A stretch of DNA of 64,000 bases. Origin: Branchiostoma floridae. Its lineage: Eukaryota; Chordata; Leptocardii; Amphioxiformes; Branchiostomatidae. A model generated the notes under the pieces. It was not told the DNA's origin, did no database searches, and saw only the letters and a list, made by a program, of their open reading frames with translations. The DNA lies in the NCBI RefSeq assembly GCF_000003815.2, contig NC_049982.1, positions 22,624,065 through 22,688,064 on the forward strand. Reading direction: 5' to 3'. Both the position numbers and the translations under genes were made by a program. Position 1 is the first letter of the stretch; each line of letters opens with the position of its first letter. Shown here piece after piece: positions 47,001-49,689 of this stretch.

Positions 47001-49689
47001 CTTAAAATTTGGTTCAATGTTTGTGTTGGAAATGGTAGTTTAAATTTGCCTCGGACATTGTTCTTTGATGTCTATTTGTATCAGATTTGACAGTGACTGG
47101 AAGTCTCCTTCAAAGATATGACTTGGTTTAGAAAGGGGGGGGGCTGGTAGGTAATCGAACACAAGAGGCTTTGTTTCAAAGACACGTATCAATTGGAACA
47201 TAGATAGAGAACCAAATGATCAAATCAAATCGCAATTCAGTTATTTTAAAAAGCTATTATTTAGATTTTGTTGTATTTTCGTTGTCAGATAGGTCACTTA
47301 GCAAATGGTCACAGCTGGTTGAAAGTATCTTCCATTTTTTAATACTTCTGGCACACTATCCGGAATTTTATGTCTGCATCTGCTGTTTAGTATGCTTTAC
47401 TTGACAAACAGGAAACATTATGTGGGAAATGATATACATGTATGTGAGATACTTGGCGTTTCACTACAATCGCAGTGATTTGTGCGTATCATGGAGAGAA
47501 TTTATTAGAGAAGCCTGTGTTTGAGATCAACCAGATCATTGAATATATATTTTGTGGCACATTTGAAATATAGAAATATATAAATTTCGTCTGTAACTGT
47601 TGTTCTCTGGAGAATCACATAATGTGTAGTAAGGATTGATGTTTTATGCATAAAAGCTGTTCTTGCTTTTTTATTGCCTATAATCAATCACTTAGCATTC
47701 TGGGTTACGGCTGTGTCATTTTGTAATTGGTTACCGCACAGGCGCACATGATGCTTGTTTATCATGAGAAAATGATAAGGAGAAGTTATAAGGTGAAGGC
47801 TGCCTTACCAAGAGCACATTGCACCGTCCGTCTGTAACGTCTTCTCCCTGCCAGTCTGTAGAAACGGTGTCTCTGGGATAAGTACTGGTGACTTCTTCAA
47901 AAAGTTGCGTTTCTTCTTCAACTTCCTCATCAGGCACTTGTGTATGAAGATGGAAGCCCTTGTCGTCTTTAAAGACTGTGATTTCTTCTTCTTGCTCCAG
48001 AGTCGTGAGTGTGGTAGAGTCGTCGGCAAAGTCGGGACTGGAGGCGTCTGAAGTTGATCTGTGCTTGTCTTTGTCGTGAAGTTTTCTGAAGAGCGGTCTG
48101 GGATCGTTGATGACTCTCCTCGGGAACCCTGACTCCGACTCCAGACCGATCGCGCCGTCCTGTTCTAAGGAGTCGGGAGAAGTGATAGAACCGCTGTCTG
48201 AGAGATTCAGGTCGGACTTGTCTCCGACGTTGGTGAAGAGAGAAGTTGTGGAGCTGTGCGTCACGACGTCCGTGTCCGAACCCTCGGAAGACTTGTCGCC
48301 GCCACCGACGTTTCTGAAGACGGCCTGAGACGTTTGTAAGATGTTCCTCTTTGGGGACGAGCTGGGAAGGGGTCTGCCTACGTGATGATGAGAAATGAAC
48401 TGTTTTATTTCATGACAAACTTGAAAGTACAAAACTGTAGCCAGAAATTGCAGTACTGCACAATGCGTACTAAGACCTCTGTGTTAATTGTAAAAAAGAC
48501 TTTTAGAAAATAGGTCTATGTAGAACAAAAAAAAAAAAAACAACAACACACAAATCATACATATAGGAATTTTAGCATCTTTCGGAAAGCTATGAGACCG
48601 AAGTATTATCTACTTACCTATACTGGCAAGGGTGGCGCCTCCGTCCGCTCCTGAACCGGACGACTCGATGTCAGAAGGAGCAGAGCTGTCTCTGACTGTT
48701 CGGAATAAGGAGGAAGATGAGGAGTACACAGTGGACCCATGGCCTGAGTTAGTCGACTCCTCTAGACCTGACTCCTCTGTAGCTGACGAGACTGGCCTCT
48801 GTCCTATCGTGGTGAAGACGGCCTGAGACGTTTTCCCGAAGCTCTTCTTTGGGGAAGAGCTGGGATGGGGTCTGCCTACAAGATGATGAGAGATGAACTG
48901 TTTTATTCGATGACACACTTAAACTTATTAAGTTAAAAGTACTAACTGAATCACTCAGACCACAGTGCACAACACGTACATTTGGTATCTTTCTGAAAGC
49001 TATGAGAACCAAAGTTATTTATATAGCTACATACCTATACTGGCAAGTGTGGCGCCTCCGTCCGCTCCTGAACCCGAAGACTCAGAAGGAGCAGAGCTGT
49101 CTCTGATGGTTCGGAATAAGGAGGAAGATGAGGAGTAAACAGTGGACCCACGGCCTGAGGTGGTCGACTCTTCCAGACCTGACTCCTCTGTAGCTGACGA
49201 GACCGGCCTCTGTCCTATCGTGGTGAAGACGGATTGTGAAGTCTTCCCGAGTTTCTTTCGCGGAGACCCGGAAGCTGAGTTGGAACCCAGTAGAAACGCG
49301 ACGTTCTCTCCGTTGGCCACGTCTGTGACCGTGCTAGCACCTGACGGATTATCCACAGTGGTGAAGACGGCTGCGGTCGCCCTGAGGATTTTTCTAGAGG
49401 GGGATCCCTGTACGCTGTCCCTCCCCCTTTGCGGTAGTATGCCCTGCGTGGTGGTAGAGATGGAGTCCCTGAGATAGGATTTGTCGCCAACGTTCAGGAA
49501 GATGGGGTTGCTCCGTGGTACCTTCCCTCCCCATCTTCTCTTCAGTCCCTCTAGATCTAACGATTTGCTGTCGTACGCTCCCTTGATGGTGTAGAAGAAC
49601 ACGTTAGGCCTTCCTGTGCTCCACGTGGCCCTCCCGTCCCTCTCTATGTGTTGAAACACTGGCTCTGACTCGCTTCTGGATTCCGCCAT
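17077..49689 (-). CDS. DPYSL: Collapsin response mediator protein / dihydropyrimidinase-related protein (CRMP, DPYSL)
   Basis: Cytosolic tetrameric phosphoprotein family that binds tubulin and acts downstream of guidance cues. Core exons, minus strand: 33889-33983, 25334-25518, 24932-25096, 24386-24447, 23624-23704, 23152-23220, 23001-23045, 22370-22602, 21583-21724, 21096-21179, 20749-20835, 20525-20623, 20038-20124, 19481-19646, (18078-18191), 17077-17162. All join in phase. Start is either 42573 (short form, 576 residues, or 614 with the bracketed exon) or 49689 (long form, 1055 or 1093). CRMP rather than enzyme: the HxH zinc motif reads NTH in [10 protein letters not shown], the carboxylated Lys is Leu in [10 protein letters not shown], and a metal-site His is Arg in YITRVMS. 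Tail ends [19 protein letters not shown], as in vertebrate CRMPs. A LINE lies in the intron before exon 25334-25518. Confidence 0.96.
18078..18191 (-). CDS. DPYSL: Candidate cassette exon duplicating the CRMP SGF tail motif
   Basis: A 114-bp frame bounded by TTTCACTAG and a TCAG/GTAGCT donor, phase 1-1. It ends [12 protein letters not shown], mirroring [13 protein letters not shown] at the end of exon 19481-19646. Preceding residues ([20 protein letters not shown]) are not recognised. Because it is symmetric, it can be included between 19481-19646 and 17077-17162 or skipped with the frame intact. Confidence 0.65.
18540..18715. mobile_element. MITE, GGCCACACC family, short copy
   Basis: The left end GCCACACCAGTTTCATTTCTTGG is mirrored by CCAAGAAATTTAACTGGTGTGGCC at the right. 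It is related to the larger element at 62914-63280. It lies in a CRMP intron and is non-coding. Confidence 0.65.
18806..18841. repeat. Perfect 15-bp hairpin
   Basis: TACCAAGGAGGTTAT, a six-base loop ATAGAG, then ATAACCTCCTTGGTA. The same AACCTCCTTGGT word occurs at about 3685. It is probably a fold-back insertion remnant in a CRMP intron. Confidence 0.75.
19271..19424. mobile_element. Fold-back MITE, TTCCAACACAAAAATTGG family
   Basis: Arms of about 55 bp: CTTGAAATAGTTGAACTG, then TTTCCAACACAAAAATTGGA and CTCACCCAA, mirrored on the right, around a ~40-base centre. A diverged copy lies at 46876-47045. It sits just downstream, in transcription sense, of CRMP exon 19481-19646. Confidence 0.8.
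19748..19960. repeat. CA-rich microsatellite
   Basis: A degenerate (CA)n tract with a pure run at about 19930-19951. It generates spurious His/Thr-rich frames on the plus strand. It lies in a CRMP intron. Confidence 0.9.
21925..22046 (+). repeat. Non-LTR retroelement 3' tail with (AAAT)n terminus
   Basis: Ends TGGCTAGTTGGGCAGCC, TGGCTGTCTGTAAACAGCC and then tandem AAAT units. The form is typical of the 3' end of a CR1/L2-like LINE or its SINE. Only the tail is present. Family is inferred, not proven. Confidence 0.5.
23913..24325. repeat. Minisatellite, 43-bp unit, about nine copies
   Basis: Tandem copies of a unit containing CAGTACCAAGGACAGAGA, ACACCATCACAACATAA and CACATT, with increasing divergence and partial units at both ends. 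It lies in the CRMP intron between exons 24386-24447 and 23624-23704. Confidence 0.85.
25785..25895. promoter_or_regulatory. Four-copy CCAAT-box array
   Basis: Four imperfect ~34-bp repeats each carry GCGCTGATTGGTCAGT or a close variant. On the minus strand, the direction of the CRMP gene, each reads ACTGACCAATCAGCGC, an NF-Y-type CCAAT box. The array lies about 270 bp upstream of exon 25334-25518. Whether it is regulatory or just a small tandem repeat cannot be decided here. Confidence 0.4.
26419..26442 (-). repeat. Perfect 10-bp hairpin at the LINE 3' end
   Basis: GCATTGCCGC, loop GCCA, GCGGCAATGC. On the element's sense strand it lies at the extreme 3' end, just before AAAAATATTAATT. Position and form fit a 3' structure recognised by the element's reverse transcriptase, which is inference. 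Confidence 0.7.
26844..30338 (-). CDS. LINE ORF2: AP-like endonuclease and reverse transcriptase (1164 aa)
   Basis: Carries out target nicking and target-primed reverse transcription. An N-terminal AP-endonuclease-like domain spans about residues 13-240, with [22 protein letters not shown] near 149, RLDRFYSS and TDHDCVSL. The reverse transcriptase spans about 430-720: [50 protein letters not shown] and the catalytic QYADDNSAI near 703. A C-terminal Cys/His motif follows, LCPRRNC then THAIWSC. All core catalytic residues are present and there are no stops, so the ORF appears intact. The start is the first ATG after ORF1, in a different frame. Translation probably relies on reinitiation, which is inference. 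Confidence 0.95.
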   Translation of the reverse strand: MLFDIPSLCSLMVLIATLNVCGLRSPQKRRQVFGFCRQHKFDVVCLQECHVSSTSEAVLWEKEWGGQAFWALGSSQSRGVGILLSPSFNFDVVKKSCDDSGRVVCVVLSDGARNFKVCNMYAPNISAERTGFFKNLYKFLSGAEPLILCGDFNCVEDVDIDKRGGNPAHGSGGSTVLKDICADFNVHDSWRHENPSKKVFTWRQPTKGIACRLDRFYSSKCLVVSNYCFLPAYFTDHDCVSLSILPDVKKKPGLWKCNVSILKRDKVLNDFKLAFNNWKTLKPGFPSLRAWWDDVKARTRSLLIRISCELARERRESMFTLNNELVDLTNKMNDGASSADILRRYECTKSSLSELSAEEARGAFVRSRVKQFVEGEKCTSYFVSQASSRSRQRRISSVRDSTGRVVQDDEEILDVFKLFYEDLFSAEPIDKCEANNLCNNLEGSLDPDEVSSLEGPLSLDELWAALCSMENNKSPGSDGLPKEFYVAFWDVIAGDLLSVFEEVFSSGELSQSQSFGVITLLPKKGDPLDPKNRRPISLLNCDYKILAKVLNNRLKMVAASVISPDQTCGIPGRSIQCNLLLMRDIITYVNMNNFDCAIISLDQAKAFDRVNIDFLHLTLTKMGFGPVFRKWVAILYHNITSAVLVNGSLSSSFSLSRGVRQGCPMSPLLYAISLEPFAATVRADAAIHGLRLPGGREVKISQYADDNSAIVTTDESIRRLFAVIDMYNRGSGSLLNLDKCMGLWLGSWRKRLDCPKNFKWTSVSIRLLGGTFGSVNMPLVNWRERQAKFEAVLRRWDSFSLSFAGKVVVVNNLALSTLWYIAPVFSPPESVVKDITRAVFKFFWSYRAELVSRQTVLLPLDKGGWDLIDFGVKANCFYCRPFTNILDRPDLPWVQLAKYWLGFFARRFEPSSWSNSSPHSPEAPPHYSLMRKLTLEFVNASASKTWDRICTVQSLYKAAILARSHTPSACFLERGVDWSLVFSTVHNTLLENNLKELSWKVAHGALKTNYLTCSIWHRTPSPLCPRRNCRATETVTHAIWSCGEVLLTWTWVEGFIRRWVVSSFRVSRAVALYGVMSSTLKKCKRDVCTYILAVARSKIWWSRCQALFDNNFVSHIELVSLIKEALRFKLKMEFVRLGSESFLAEWCQSVKWASVRTGVLVLRF
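30353..32242 (-). CDS. LINE ORF1: zinc-knuckle and zinc-finger nucleic-acid-binding protein (629 aa)
   Basis: Predicted RNA-binding chaperone of the retrotransposon RNP. Three consecutive CCHC knuckles (Cys-x2-Cys-x4-His-x4-Cys) lie at about 159-172, 177-190 and 196-209. A Ser/Pro/Glu-rich linker follows with a duplicated block [13 protein letters not shown] / [13 protein letters not shown], then an Arg/Lys patch. A Cys-rich segment at about 385-445 has several CxxC pairs (CQGC, CHQC, CQSCH). The C-terminus at about 555-615 has C2H2-like fingers, SHLAKAHG and [10 protein letters not shown] then HLYNVH. The N-terminal ~150 residues may form an RRM-like fold, but I see no firm motif. The ORF is intact. 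Confidence 0.88.
   Translation of the reverse strand: MKRPLSIKVAVYRDRLTYEQVFTLLSEVSAPMSSIQAVQSLGPNSFDVSFSSVHERTLYAGKLSGLDAVDVSSYAAAEIIVTATRIPYELDDNYVRNWLNQYCAVITSRMVTYRDRPTIKNGNRQYKVVLKPGCNIPSAWKMYDGRMVFFRYVGQPRTCLRCNQEGHESANCAVTFCNKCQSIGHLAMDCTNDVVCLSCRAEGHTARRCPLSFANRIKMGASWAESQELPAGVSQVREHHDGRVPQAVNKTDRSELAHVSDAESGVSDPVSPPGHPGSVDPGTSSAVKSDVSSPVAEPEVSPTVAVVEPSEDVLSEAAPSLTKFSPVAVVEPSEDLLSEAAPSLAKPGLSSSSSEQVPSTSAAPVPAPRARSQRRRRKAASPIRPVTRRYMCQGCELDYTITLEVVSCHQCKADITPESALLAFCEGPVCQSDNRLFLCQSCHDGNSDIADKDSRKRCRGDSSEGSASAKTLSKGKKIRKEPDSDSSLVIEEFPSESLRSVDGNESDSTVGSRSLIIDEDTSDASQAPSPDLVAKARAIVISSDLYKNKAVFVCNQFISHGCDELLHSFRSLKSHLAKAHGISGDVVPCKVGNCSRFFKTTMLCLKHLYNVHPQFVNRIGVEGIDDLYH
32585..32940 (-). 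repeat. Two sets of tandem repeats in the LINE 5' UTR
   Basis: Two ~110-bp copies (32585-32800) share CTCTCAGCCCAGTC, AATGGGCGGGGG and CACAATGCTGCAACTAGATT. Three 46-bp copies (from 32801, 32847 and 32892) share AGATCAACTCA, AAGCCCAGAGTTC and CCGACTT. Tandem monomers at a LINE 5' end recall promoter monomers of some L1 families. Confidence 0.75.
34849..34886. repeat. Perfect 38-bp palindrome
   Basis: CAATGAGCTTTTATATCAG followed directly by its exact reverse complement, with no spacer. A looser relative containing GAGCTTTATCATGATGAAAGCTC lies at about 35560-35585. Confidence 0.9.
40372..40658. mobile_element. 287-bp TIR element, TAGCCTGGGTACCA termini
   Basis: TAGCCTGGGTACCA at the left is matched by TGGTACCCAGACTA at the right. 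Internal GTCGGAGCGAAC / GTCAGAGCGAAC repeats lie near the right end. It is non-coding and lies in a CRMP intron. Confidence 0.6.
41060..41160 (-). mobile_element. tRNA-derived SINE
   Basis: On the minus strand GATGGCCTAGCGAGTAGAGC resembles a tRNA A box and GAGTTCGATTC a B box, spaced as in a pol III tRNA promoter. The sequence then continues into non-tRNA body. There is no intact acceptor stem, so it is a SINE head rather than a tRNA gene. Confidence 0.6.
42529..42573 (-). CDS. DPYSL: CRMP short-isoform first coding exon
   Basis: Fifteen codons, [15 protein letters not shown], end exactly at a strong donor (AAG followed by GTAGGT) in phase 0, matching the phase-0 acceptor at 33983. Length and position resemble the short first coding exon of vertebrate CRMPs. 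The frame stays open upstream to 42957, so a longer leader is possible, but I chose the ATG nearest the donor. A separate promoter upstream of 42573 is implied. Confidence 0.7.
44172..44320 (-). mobile_element. tRNA-derived SINE, second head type
   Basis: On the minus strand GTAGCGGTTAGAGCGTTGCC resembles a tRNA A-box region and GTTCCATACTC a B box. The body contains GAAGAGGCTCGGTGGGTG (plus strand) and GGGCACAAC, both shared with the element at 61685-61928. Confidence 0.6.
45379..45805. repeat. Tandem segmental duplication
   Basis: A segment with AACGTTGTTTGTATCGGCCA, then AAGAACAATCCTAGTTCT and AGATCAAACCTCATGGC, occurs at about 45379-45633 and again at 45631-45805. The second copy lacks an internal ~80 bp. 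No gene is seen in it. Confidence 0.8.
46876..47045. mobile_element. Fold-back MITE, diverged copy
   Basis: GAACTGTAATTTCCAACACA at the left and TGTGTTGGAAAT followed by AGTTTA at the right match the termini of the element at 19271-19424. The interior is diverged. Confidence 0.6.
47809..48377 (-). CDS. DPYSL: CRMP long-isoform exon 3
   Basis: A 569-bp exon that starts like exon 2 ([10 protein letters not shown], then [17 protein letters not shown]) and contains further motif copies [13 protein letters not shown] and [15 protein letters not shown] Glu-rich stretch follows ([24 protein letters not shown]). It ends at codon boundary NVLL with a TTGGTAAGG donor, phase 0, compatible with the core acceptor at 33983. 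I infer that this joins the long extension to the CRMP core. The exon could instead belong to an unrelated short transcript, but the phase match and vertebrate long-isoform resemblance argue against that. Confidence 0.78.
48618..48875 (-). CDS. DPYSL: CRMP long-isoform exon 2, a duplicate of the end of exon 1
   Basis: A symmetric phase 1-1 exon of 258 bp (86 codons), so it can be skipped without a frameshift. Its product is nearly identical to the last ~80 residues of exon 1: [19 protein letters not shown], then [23 protein letters not shown] and [15 protein letters not shown]. Flanking intron sequence (ATGATGAGAGATGAACTGTT) also resembles that next to exon 47809-48377, so exons and adjacent introns were duplicated together. 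Confidence 0.8.
49035..49689 (-). CDS. DPYSL: CRMP long-isoform exon 1 (repeat-rich N-terminal extension)
   Basis: Starts [18 protein letters not shown]. The ATG at 49689 is preferred over the in-frame ATG at 49749. Residues near 40-58 read [14 protein letters not shown], resembling the GAFESKTLDFDAL-type segment I recall from the vertebrate CRMP long (A) isoform. The rest is Ser/Thr/Gly-rich and probably disordered, with repeated [VIL]F-x-x-[VIL] motifs: [30 protein letters not shown] and [10 protein letters not shown]. The exon is 655 bp and ends one base into a codon at a GTATGT donor, joining exon 48618-48875 in phase. Confidence 0.8.

Follow-up and report, generated by a model that had tools for sequence, protein, structure and literature searches.

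A 64,000-nucleotide stretch of the Branchiostoma floridae genome (NC_049982.1, positions 22,624,065 to 22,688,064; hereafter the window) carries on its minus strand a gene for CRMP, a brain-wiring protein; its first three coding exons appear to encode a 494-residue N-terminal extension, the arm. Within this arm a short motif built around VFxx[VI] is repeated far beyond chance. Our interpretation, which we hold to be about evenly balanced between right and wrong, is that the gene may encode a long L-CRMP form with an arm enlarged about fourfold, which would act as a multivalent tether under the control of a Cdk5-class kinase.

The preliminary description of this DNA had proposed three open exons in a shared phase, 494 codons long together, that end in phase 0 and fit a CRMP core exon at 33983. 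Rebuilding the exons from the window returned the same bounds, phases, and length. The exons at 49689-49035, 48875-48618, and 48377-47809 (minus strand; 655, 258, and 569 nt) form a single stop-free frame of 494 codons, with AG/GT at the internal borders and phases 1, 1, and 0. Exon 1 (49035-49689) starts with the ATG at 49689, in the context AACATGG as judged by eye and with an in-frame stop upstream, and it encodes residues 1-218 and the first base of codon 219. Exon 2 (48618-48875; 258 nt) is in phase 1-1 and can be skipped without loss of frame. Exon 3 (47809-48377) ends in phase 0 and joins in phase to the first core exon (33889-33983, minus strand), which is entered in phase 0, and the frame runs through all 18 exons. 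The other 14 core exons (25518-25334 to 17162-17077; 17077-25518, minus strand) encode the rest of the core and the tail, and the stop codon ends at 17077. The core is complete with 561 residues in 15 exons traced from 33983 to 17077, all internal borders being AG/GT, and the full model has 18 coding exons, 1055 amino acids, and one terminal stop, with all borders and phases rechecked. The codon usage score was 0.745 for the arm and 0.188 for intron sequence. The extension exons very likely belong to the CRMP gene, as judged from the genomic sequence of this one locus for model, join, and isoform assignment, because the phase fits, the gene is uninterrupted, and residues 32-60 are similar to vertebrate long-isoform N-termini.

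The first core exon has no start of its own: the earliest Met is core residue 141, and the upstream frame meets a stop without a Met. A simple pattern scan of the minus strand between 47808 and 33984 gave 44 pattern matches, and inspection by eye of those of at most 30 residues with some Kozak match revealed no convincing first exon for a short isoform. The arm may thus supply the only start codon of this CRMP gene.

Core residues 3-559 of 561 match residues 14-568 of the CRMP2 chain 7u5k (E 4.1e-219), and Pfam Amidohydro_1 matches within the core (E 3.5e-28). With the folded core alone, the best chain was dihydropyrimidinase 2vr2 (680 bits vs 672 for DPYSL3); this score alone cannot separate the two families, and the CRMP label is therefore based on lost ligands and on the tail. 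Compared with 2vr2, HTH is changed to NTH, NSFK to NSFL, and VHVMS to TRVMS, which places N, L, and R at the positions of the dihydropyrimidinase H, K, and H, which we take to be metal ligands. Judged by these residues, the core has lost the metal ligands and is a non-enzyme. The CRMP-specific tail SGF[ST]L[AS]G...DDN.PRRT..RI..PPGG is present. In a tree in PMC4906994, CRMP1 and DPYSL2-4 group with one putative Ciona orthologue, and a single gene of the CRMP1-4 type is therefore to be expected in an invertebrate chordate. We also observed an extra tail exon at 18078-18191 (minus strand; 114 nt, AG/GT, phase 1-1), which codes for a 39-residue stretch with a second copy of a conserved 12-residue tail element. 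Spliced in ahead of the last exon, with both retained, it leaves the frame intact and yields a protein of 1093 amino acids.

Like the vertebrate L-CRMPs (CRMP1A/LCRMP-1, CRMP2A, and CRMP4b), the predicted lancelet protein has an N-terminal arm before the CRMP core, and the arms have in common a stretch of the form F-x-x-[VI]-x-GA[YF]-x-x-K. We compared the arm with the N-termini of vertebrate CRMP1L, CRMP2L, and CRMP4L, all three in working versions. Residues 1-75 scored 61 against CRMP4L (shuffled mean 23.1) and 57 against CRMP1L (shuffled mean 23.4), and in both cases none of 2000 shuffled sequences did as well. The vertebrate-like stretch, residues 32-60 (49510-49596, minus strand), is similar to these CRMP1 and CRMP4 long-isoform N-termini and to a published LCRMP-1 peptide. 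This peptide, YGGMFAAVEGAYENK, which is given in PMC8303486, fits a 12-residue stretch of the arm and confirms the matching part of the working sequence. By its sequence, the arm is at its beginning a homologue of the vertebrate arms; since residues 32-60 match the CRMP1 and CRMP4 long N-termini, we regard the extension as an enlarged L-CRMP arm and not as a new protein. The vertebrate arms have about 100 residues according to PMC7325199, compared with 494 here, a difference of about fourfold; in CRMP1 numbering, the offset is 114. The remaining approximately 430 residues would reflect either an expansion here or a loss in vertebrates. In the three vertebrate arms as used here, one, two, and one motif-like stretches lie within the first 70 residues, compared with ten or twelve in the lancelet arm, depending on the form of the motif. 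A search of the PDB with the CRMP4L N-terminus found only an unrelated enzyme (E 0.13).

The loose motif core [VILF]F-x-x-[VIL] occurs 12 times in the 494 residues, compared with 0.58 expected from shuffled sequences, and the form [VILF]F-x-[TNK]-[VIL] occurs 10 times, compared with 0.09 expected. The preliminary description had counted at least nine copies of a longer pattern, [VIL]F-x-x-[VIL]-x-[DG]-x-[SP]. As written, this pattern has only four matches (0.02 expected). None of 5000 shuffles reached the observed count for any of the three patterns, and the same was true after removal of exon 2, a recent duplicate with 2 of the 12 copies, which left 10 copies of the loose core, 8 of the [TNK] form, and 3 of the longer pattern. 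The gaps between copies vary from 20 to 63 residues, so that the motif is repeated but not, as had been suggested, regularly.

Four copies lie in larger units in which an SP site with basic residues and a linker precede VFxx[VI] (4 observed, 0.0085 expected, 0 of 20,000 shuffles). These units are at residues 96-112 (VFTTV; 49354-49404), 142-158 (TSQSVFTTI; 49216-49266), 226-242 (TSQAVFTTI; 48805-48855), and 312-328 (TSQAVFRNV; 48307-48357), all on the minus strand. Both the four SP-basic blocks before motif copies and the three TSQ[AS]VF stretches that had been noticed earlier are therefore present, the latter in units 2, 3, and 4. The other copies, also on the minus strand, are FFYTI at residue 31 (49585-49599), IFLNV at 63 (49489-49503), LFRTI at 191 (49105-49119), its duplicate LFRTV at 275 (48694-48708), LFTNV at 351 (48226-48240), and LFRKL at 400 (48079-48093), together with VFQHI at 11 (49645-49659) and LFEEV at 463 (47890-47904), which fit the loose form only.

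The motif was first picked by eye, and two controls were run. In one, sets of residues defined on the copies of exon 1 found two copies in exon 3 (0 of 20,000 shuffles), and a looser form found three (7 of 20,000). This control is only partly independent, as the general pattern had been used to collect the exon 1 copies and the first of the exon 3 copies sits at the margin of the stretch that has a common origin with exon 2. The other, a motif-free seed search of the arm without exon 2, beat 300 of 300 shuffles at widths 7 and 9; motif copies made up seven of the eight sites at width 7, where the eighth was LHTQVPD, and six of six at width 9. The whole arm gave nothing usable in Pfam (Tim17 at E 0.092, below its cut-off) and no match in the PDB up to E 10. 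Among the known linear motifs considered, the LC8 motif resembles the arm only loosely (TSQ[AS] for TQT), PP2A-B56 LxxIxE lacks its Glu in the 5 of 12 copies that fit a loose F-x-x-[VIL]-x-D, PP1 RVxF has the wrong spacing, and the ankyrin-binding FIGQY was not adopted either.

The DNA of the arm contains a trace of how it grew. The first part of exon 2 agrees with the start of exon 3 at 59 of 71 aligned bases, compared with 50 of 71 for exon 1 and exon 3; the second part of exon 2 corresponds to the end of exon 1, and the switch falls within the shared [AS]VFT-coding sequence. Introns 1 and 2 can be aligned over their whole length (251 columns, with long gaps), and 125 of the 148 aligned bases are identical. 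By its sequence, exon 2 is thus a chimera of the exon 3 head and the exon 1 tail, with the make-up that one unequal crossover between the exon 1 and exon 3 motifs would leave, and as the chimera is joined inside the motif, unequal crossing-over at this place would have made new motif copies. Since the duplication, 12 of 198 coding bases have changed, 9 of these 12 at third positions. Over 66 codons, with a two-codon indel dropped from the alignment, nonsynonymous (dN) and synonymous (dS) divergence were 0.021 and 0.183 by NG86 and 0.027 and 0.113 by YN00, corresponding to dN/dS of about 0.12 and 0.24, respectively. The low dN relative to dS and the bias to third positions therefore show that the exon 2 copy is coding and constrained at the protein level. 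At the DNA level, blastn found relatedness only among exon 2, the final 216 nt of exon 1, and the initial 63 nt of exon 3, and neither blastn nor tblastn found more copies of the repeat elsewhere in the window.

The whole protein has seven Ser/Thr-Pro sites, of which six are in the arm, one is in the core (residue 796), and none is in the tail; this also holds when the additional tail exon 18191-18078 is included. In the CRMP2 tail, Ser/Thr-Pro sites form a kinase cluster (of the Thr509, Thr514, Ser522 type) that is absent from the tail described here. The CRMP2 tail carries SVTPKTVTPASSAKTSPAK according to PMC13288452, and the stretch aligned to it has no Ser/Thr-Pro. Proline-directed control, if there is any, would therefore have to act via the arm or the one site in the core, provided that no further exons have escaped notice. 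The four SP sites beside the motif all fit [ST]P-x-[KR]. By eye, the four SP-VF units resemble SPKPRQKFCGMFCPV of CRMP2L, which has Ser-Pro at positions 27-28, in keeping with the published Ser27 site. In the arm of vertebrate CRMP2A, Cdk5 phosphorylates Ser27, which Pin1 recognises (PMC7325199 and PMC13288452). PMC7325199 also mentions Ser32-Pro33 beside Ser27, and the two are not reconciled. Proline-directed kinase control, already suspected in the preliminary description, appears plausible from the fit of the four SP sites to [ST]P-x-[KR] and from Ser27 of CRMP2A being a Cdk5/Pin1 target.

We propose that the arm could be a disordered tether in which the motif, possibly by adding a short strand to the sheet of a partner, would attach the microtubule-bound CRMP core to the cell cortex or to some other scaffold, with many docking points instead of one or two. 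Phosphorylation of SPx[KR] beside four of the motifs by a Cdk5-class kinase, perhaps with Pin1, would set the number of motifs free to bind, and skipping exon 2, which keeps the frame, could alter how many docking sites there are. CRMPs are tetramers according to PMC7325199, and about 40 motif copies and 16 SP units would therefore be displayed per particle. The model for such a tether is Caenorhabditis elegans UNC-33L, a long isoform and reportedly the sole one to rescue neuron polarity. Its N-terminal part binds UNC-119 and hence the ankyrin UNC-44, fixing microtubules to the cortex. PMC5135030 describes a giant ankyrin of B. floridae in which two long exons are homologous. Roles of vertebrate arms are also mentioned in PMC7325199: L-CRMP4 interacts with RhoA, and the expression of L-CRMP1 correlates with cancer cell migration. 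The preliminary description knew of no account of such an arm. Among the open-access literature matches listed, none gives an account of an invertebrate-chordate CRMP arm, while the L-CRMP arm as such, its Cdk5 site, and the anchor arm of UNC-33L are already known.

We weighed these proposals against other explanations. It is very improbable that the three exons are part of another transcript and not of the CRMP gene: the intron to the core is 13.8 kb long and the join is known from the genome sequence alone, but the phase fits at 47809/33983, residues 32-60 match the CRMP1L and CRMP4L N-termini, the first core exon has no own start, and no convincing alternative first exon was seen in the intron. 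We give scarcely any credence to an assembly artefact, by which exon 2 would be the other haplotype of the same locus and the true arm would have 408 residues. In their coding sequence, exon 2 and the tail of exon 1 differ little (the 12 of 198 bases given above); however, 23 of 148 aligned bases are different between the introns, whose alignment also has long gaps, the head of exon 2 is closer to exon 3 than to exon 1, and a haplotype copy would be expected to repeat the rest of exon 1. Neutral growth, in which the arm would be an entropic linker produced by unequal crossing-over and the motif a passenger with copies alike from common descent only, seems unlikely to us. It would account for the chimeric exon 2 and for the lack of anything like the arm in Pfam or the PDB, and half-diverged duplicates would look like a motif. 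Yet the kinship at the DNA level is confined to the three stretches found by blastn, the remaining motif copies share little beyond the core, and the low dN/dS after the duplication argues against a mere passenger. Alternatively, the motif could bind the arm's own CRMP core or tetramer, with an autoinhibitory or clustering effect that SP phosphorylation would release. CRMP tetramers are regulated via phosphorylation of their flexible ends, according to PMC7325199, and the motif copy FFYTI adjoins the stretch common with the vertebrate arms; we nevertheless consider such self-docking quite unlikely.

Several observations weigh against a kinase-controlled tether in an L-CRMP arm. The likeness to vertebrate long isoforms, which the preliminary description saw at the start of the arm, holds for CRMP1L and CRMP4L but is weak for CRMP2L (score 36, with 20 of 2000 shuffles as good) and does not extend beyond residue 75, as residues 76-494 showed no significant similarity to the three vertebrate arms (1844, 328, and 123 of 2000 shuffles as good for CRMP4L, CRMP1L, and CRMP2L, respectively). 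The motif-free search was not significant at width 5, where 91 of 300 shuffles did as well. The charge-hydropathy value of the arm lies on the border for disorder (0.426 vs 0.425), and by codon usage the reading frame does not stand out from the other two (0.745, 0.746, and 0.719). The link of the SP-VF units to the Cdk5/Pin1 unit of CRMP2A was drawn by eye only. The N-terminus of UNC-33L is called non-conserved by its authors; it is likened to the lancelet arm by description and not by sequence, and the anchor partner is thus proposed by analogy only.

A more far-reaching version of the tether proposal, which we put forward tentatively and consider doubtful, places the CRMP switch at the opposite end of the protein. 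A kinase-gated, many-copy N-terminal docking arm would do the job of the vertebrate C-terminal TP/SP cluster, and its valency would depend on unequal crossing-over within the motif and on whether exon 2 is skipped in frame. If true, microtubules would be linked to the cell cortex in a multivalent and tunable manner. The roles of L-CRMP arms are only partly known, and the vertebrate arms, which seem to contain one or two motif-like stretches, are difficult to dissect; in a natural arm that has ten to twelve copies, the motif stands out and offers a peptide. Such an arm predicts that the short F-x-x-[VI]-x-G near the CRMP2A Cdk5/Pin1 site also serves for docking. It has a bearing, too, on which regulatory end of CRMP came first, the kinase cluster of the tail or the arm, and on whether the nematode CRMP-ankyrin anchor is shared.

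Other features of the window lie within or beside the CRMP gene. Rfam gave no match in the window at its gathering thresholds. The CRMP intron 33888-25519 contains a retrotransposon of the long interspersed nuclear element type (26844-32251, minus strand, the same strand as the gene), with an open reading frame of 1173 amino acids for endonuclease and reverse transcriptase domains and a second one of 632 amino acids with a zinc knuckle, both open. Upstream of the CRMP gene, the minus strand at 55940-56683 encodes the C-terminal CNBH domain of a CNNM-type metal transporter (Pfam PF25562, E 8.1e-10). An exon of a DHX15/PRP43-type RNA helicase is present on the plus strand at 9394-9780 (PDB match, E 3.3e-51), and 5348-5788 is another likely helicase exon, labelled by eye with Pfam P-loop matches below threshold.

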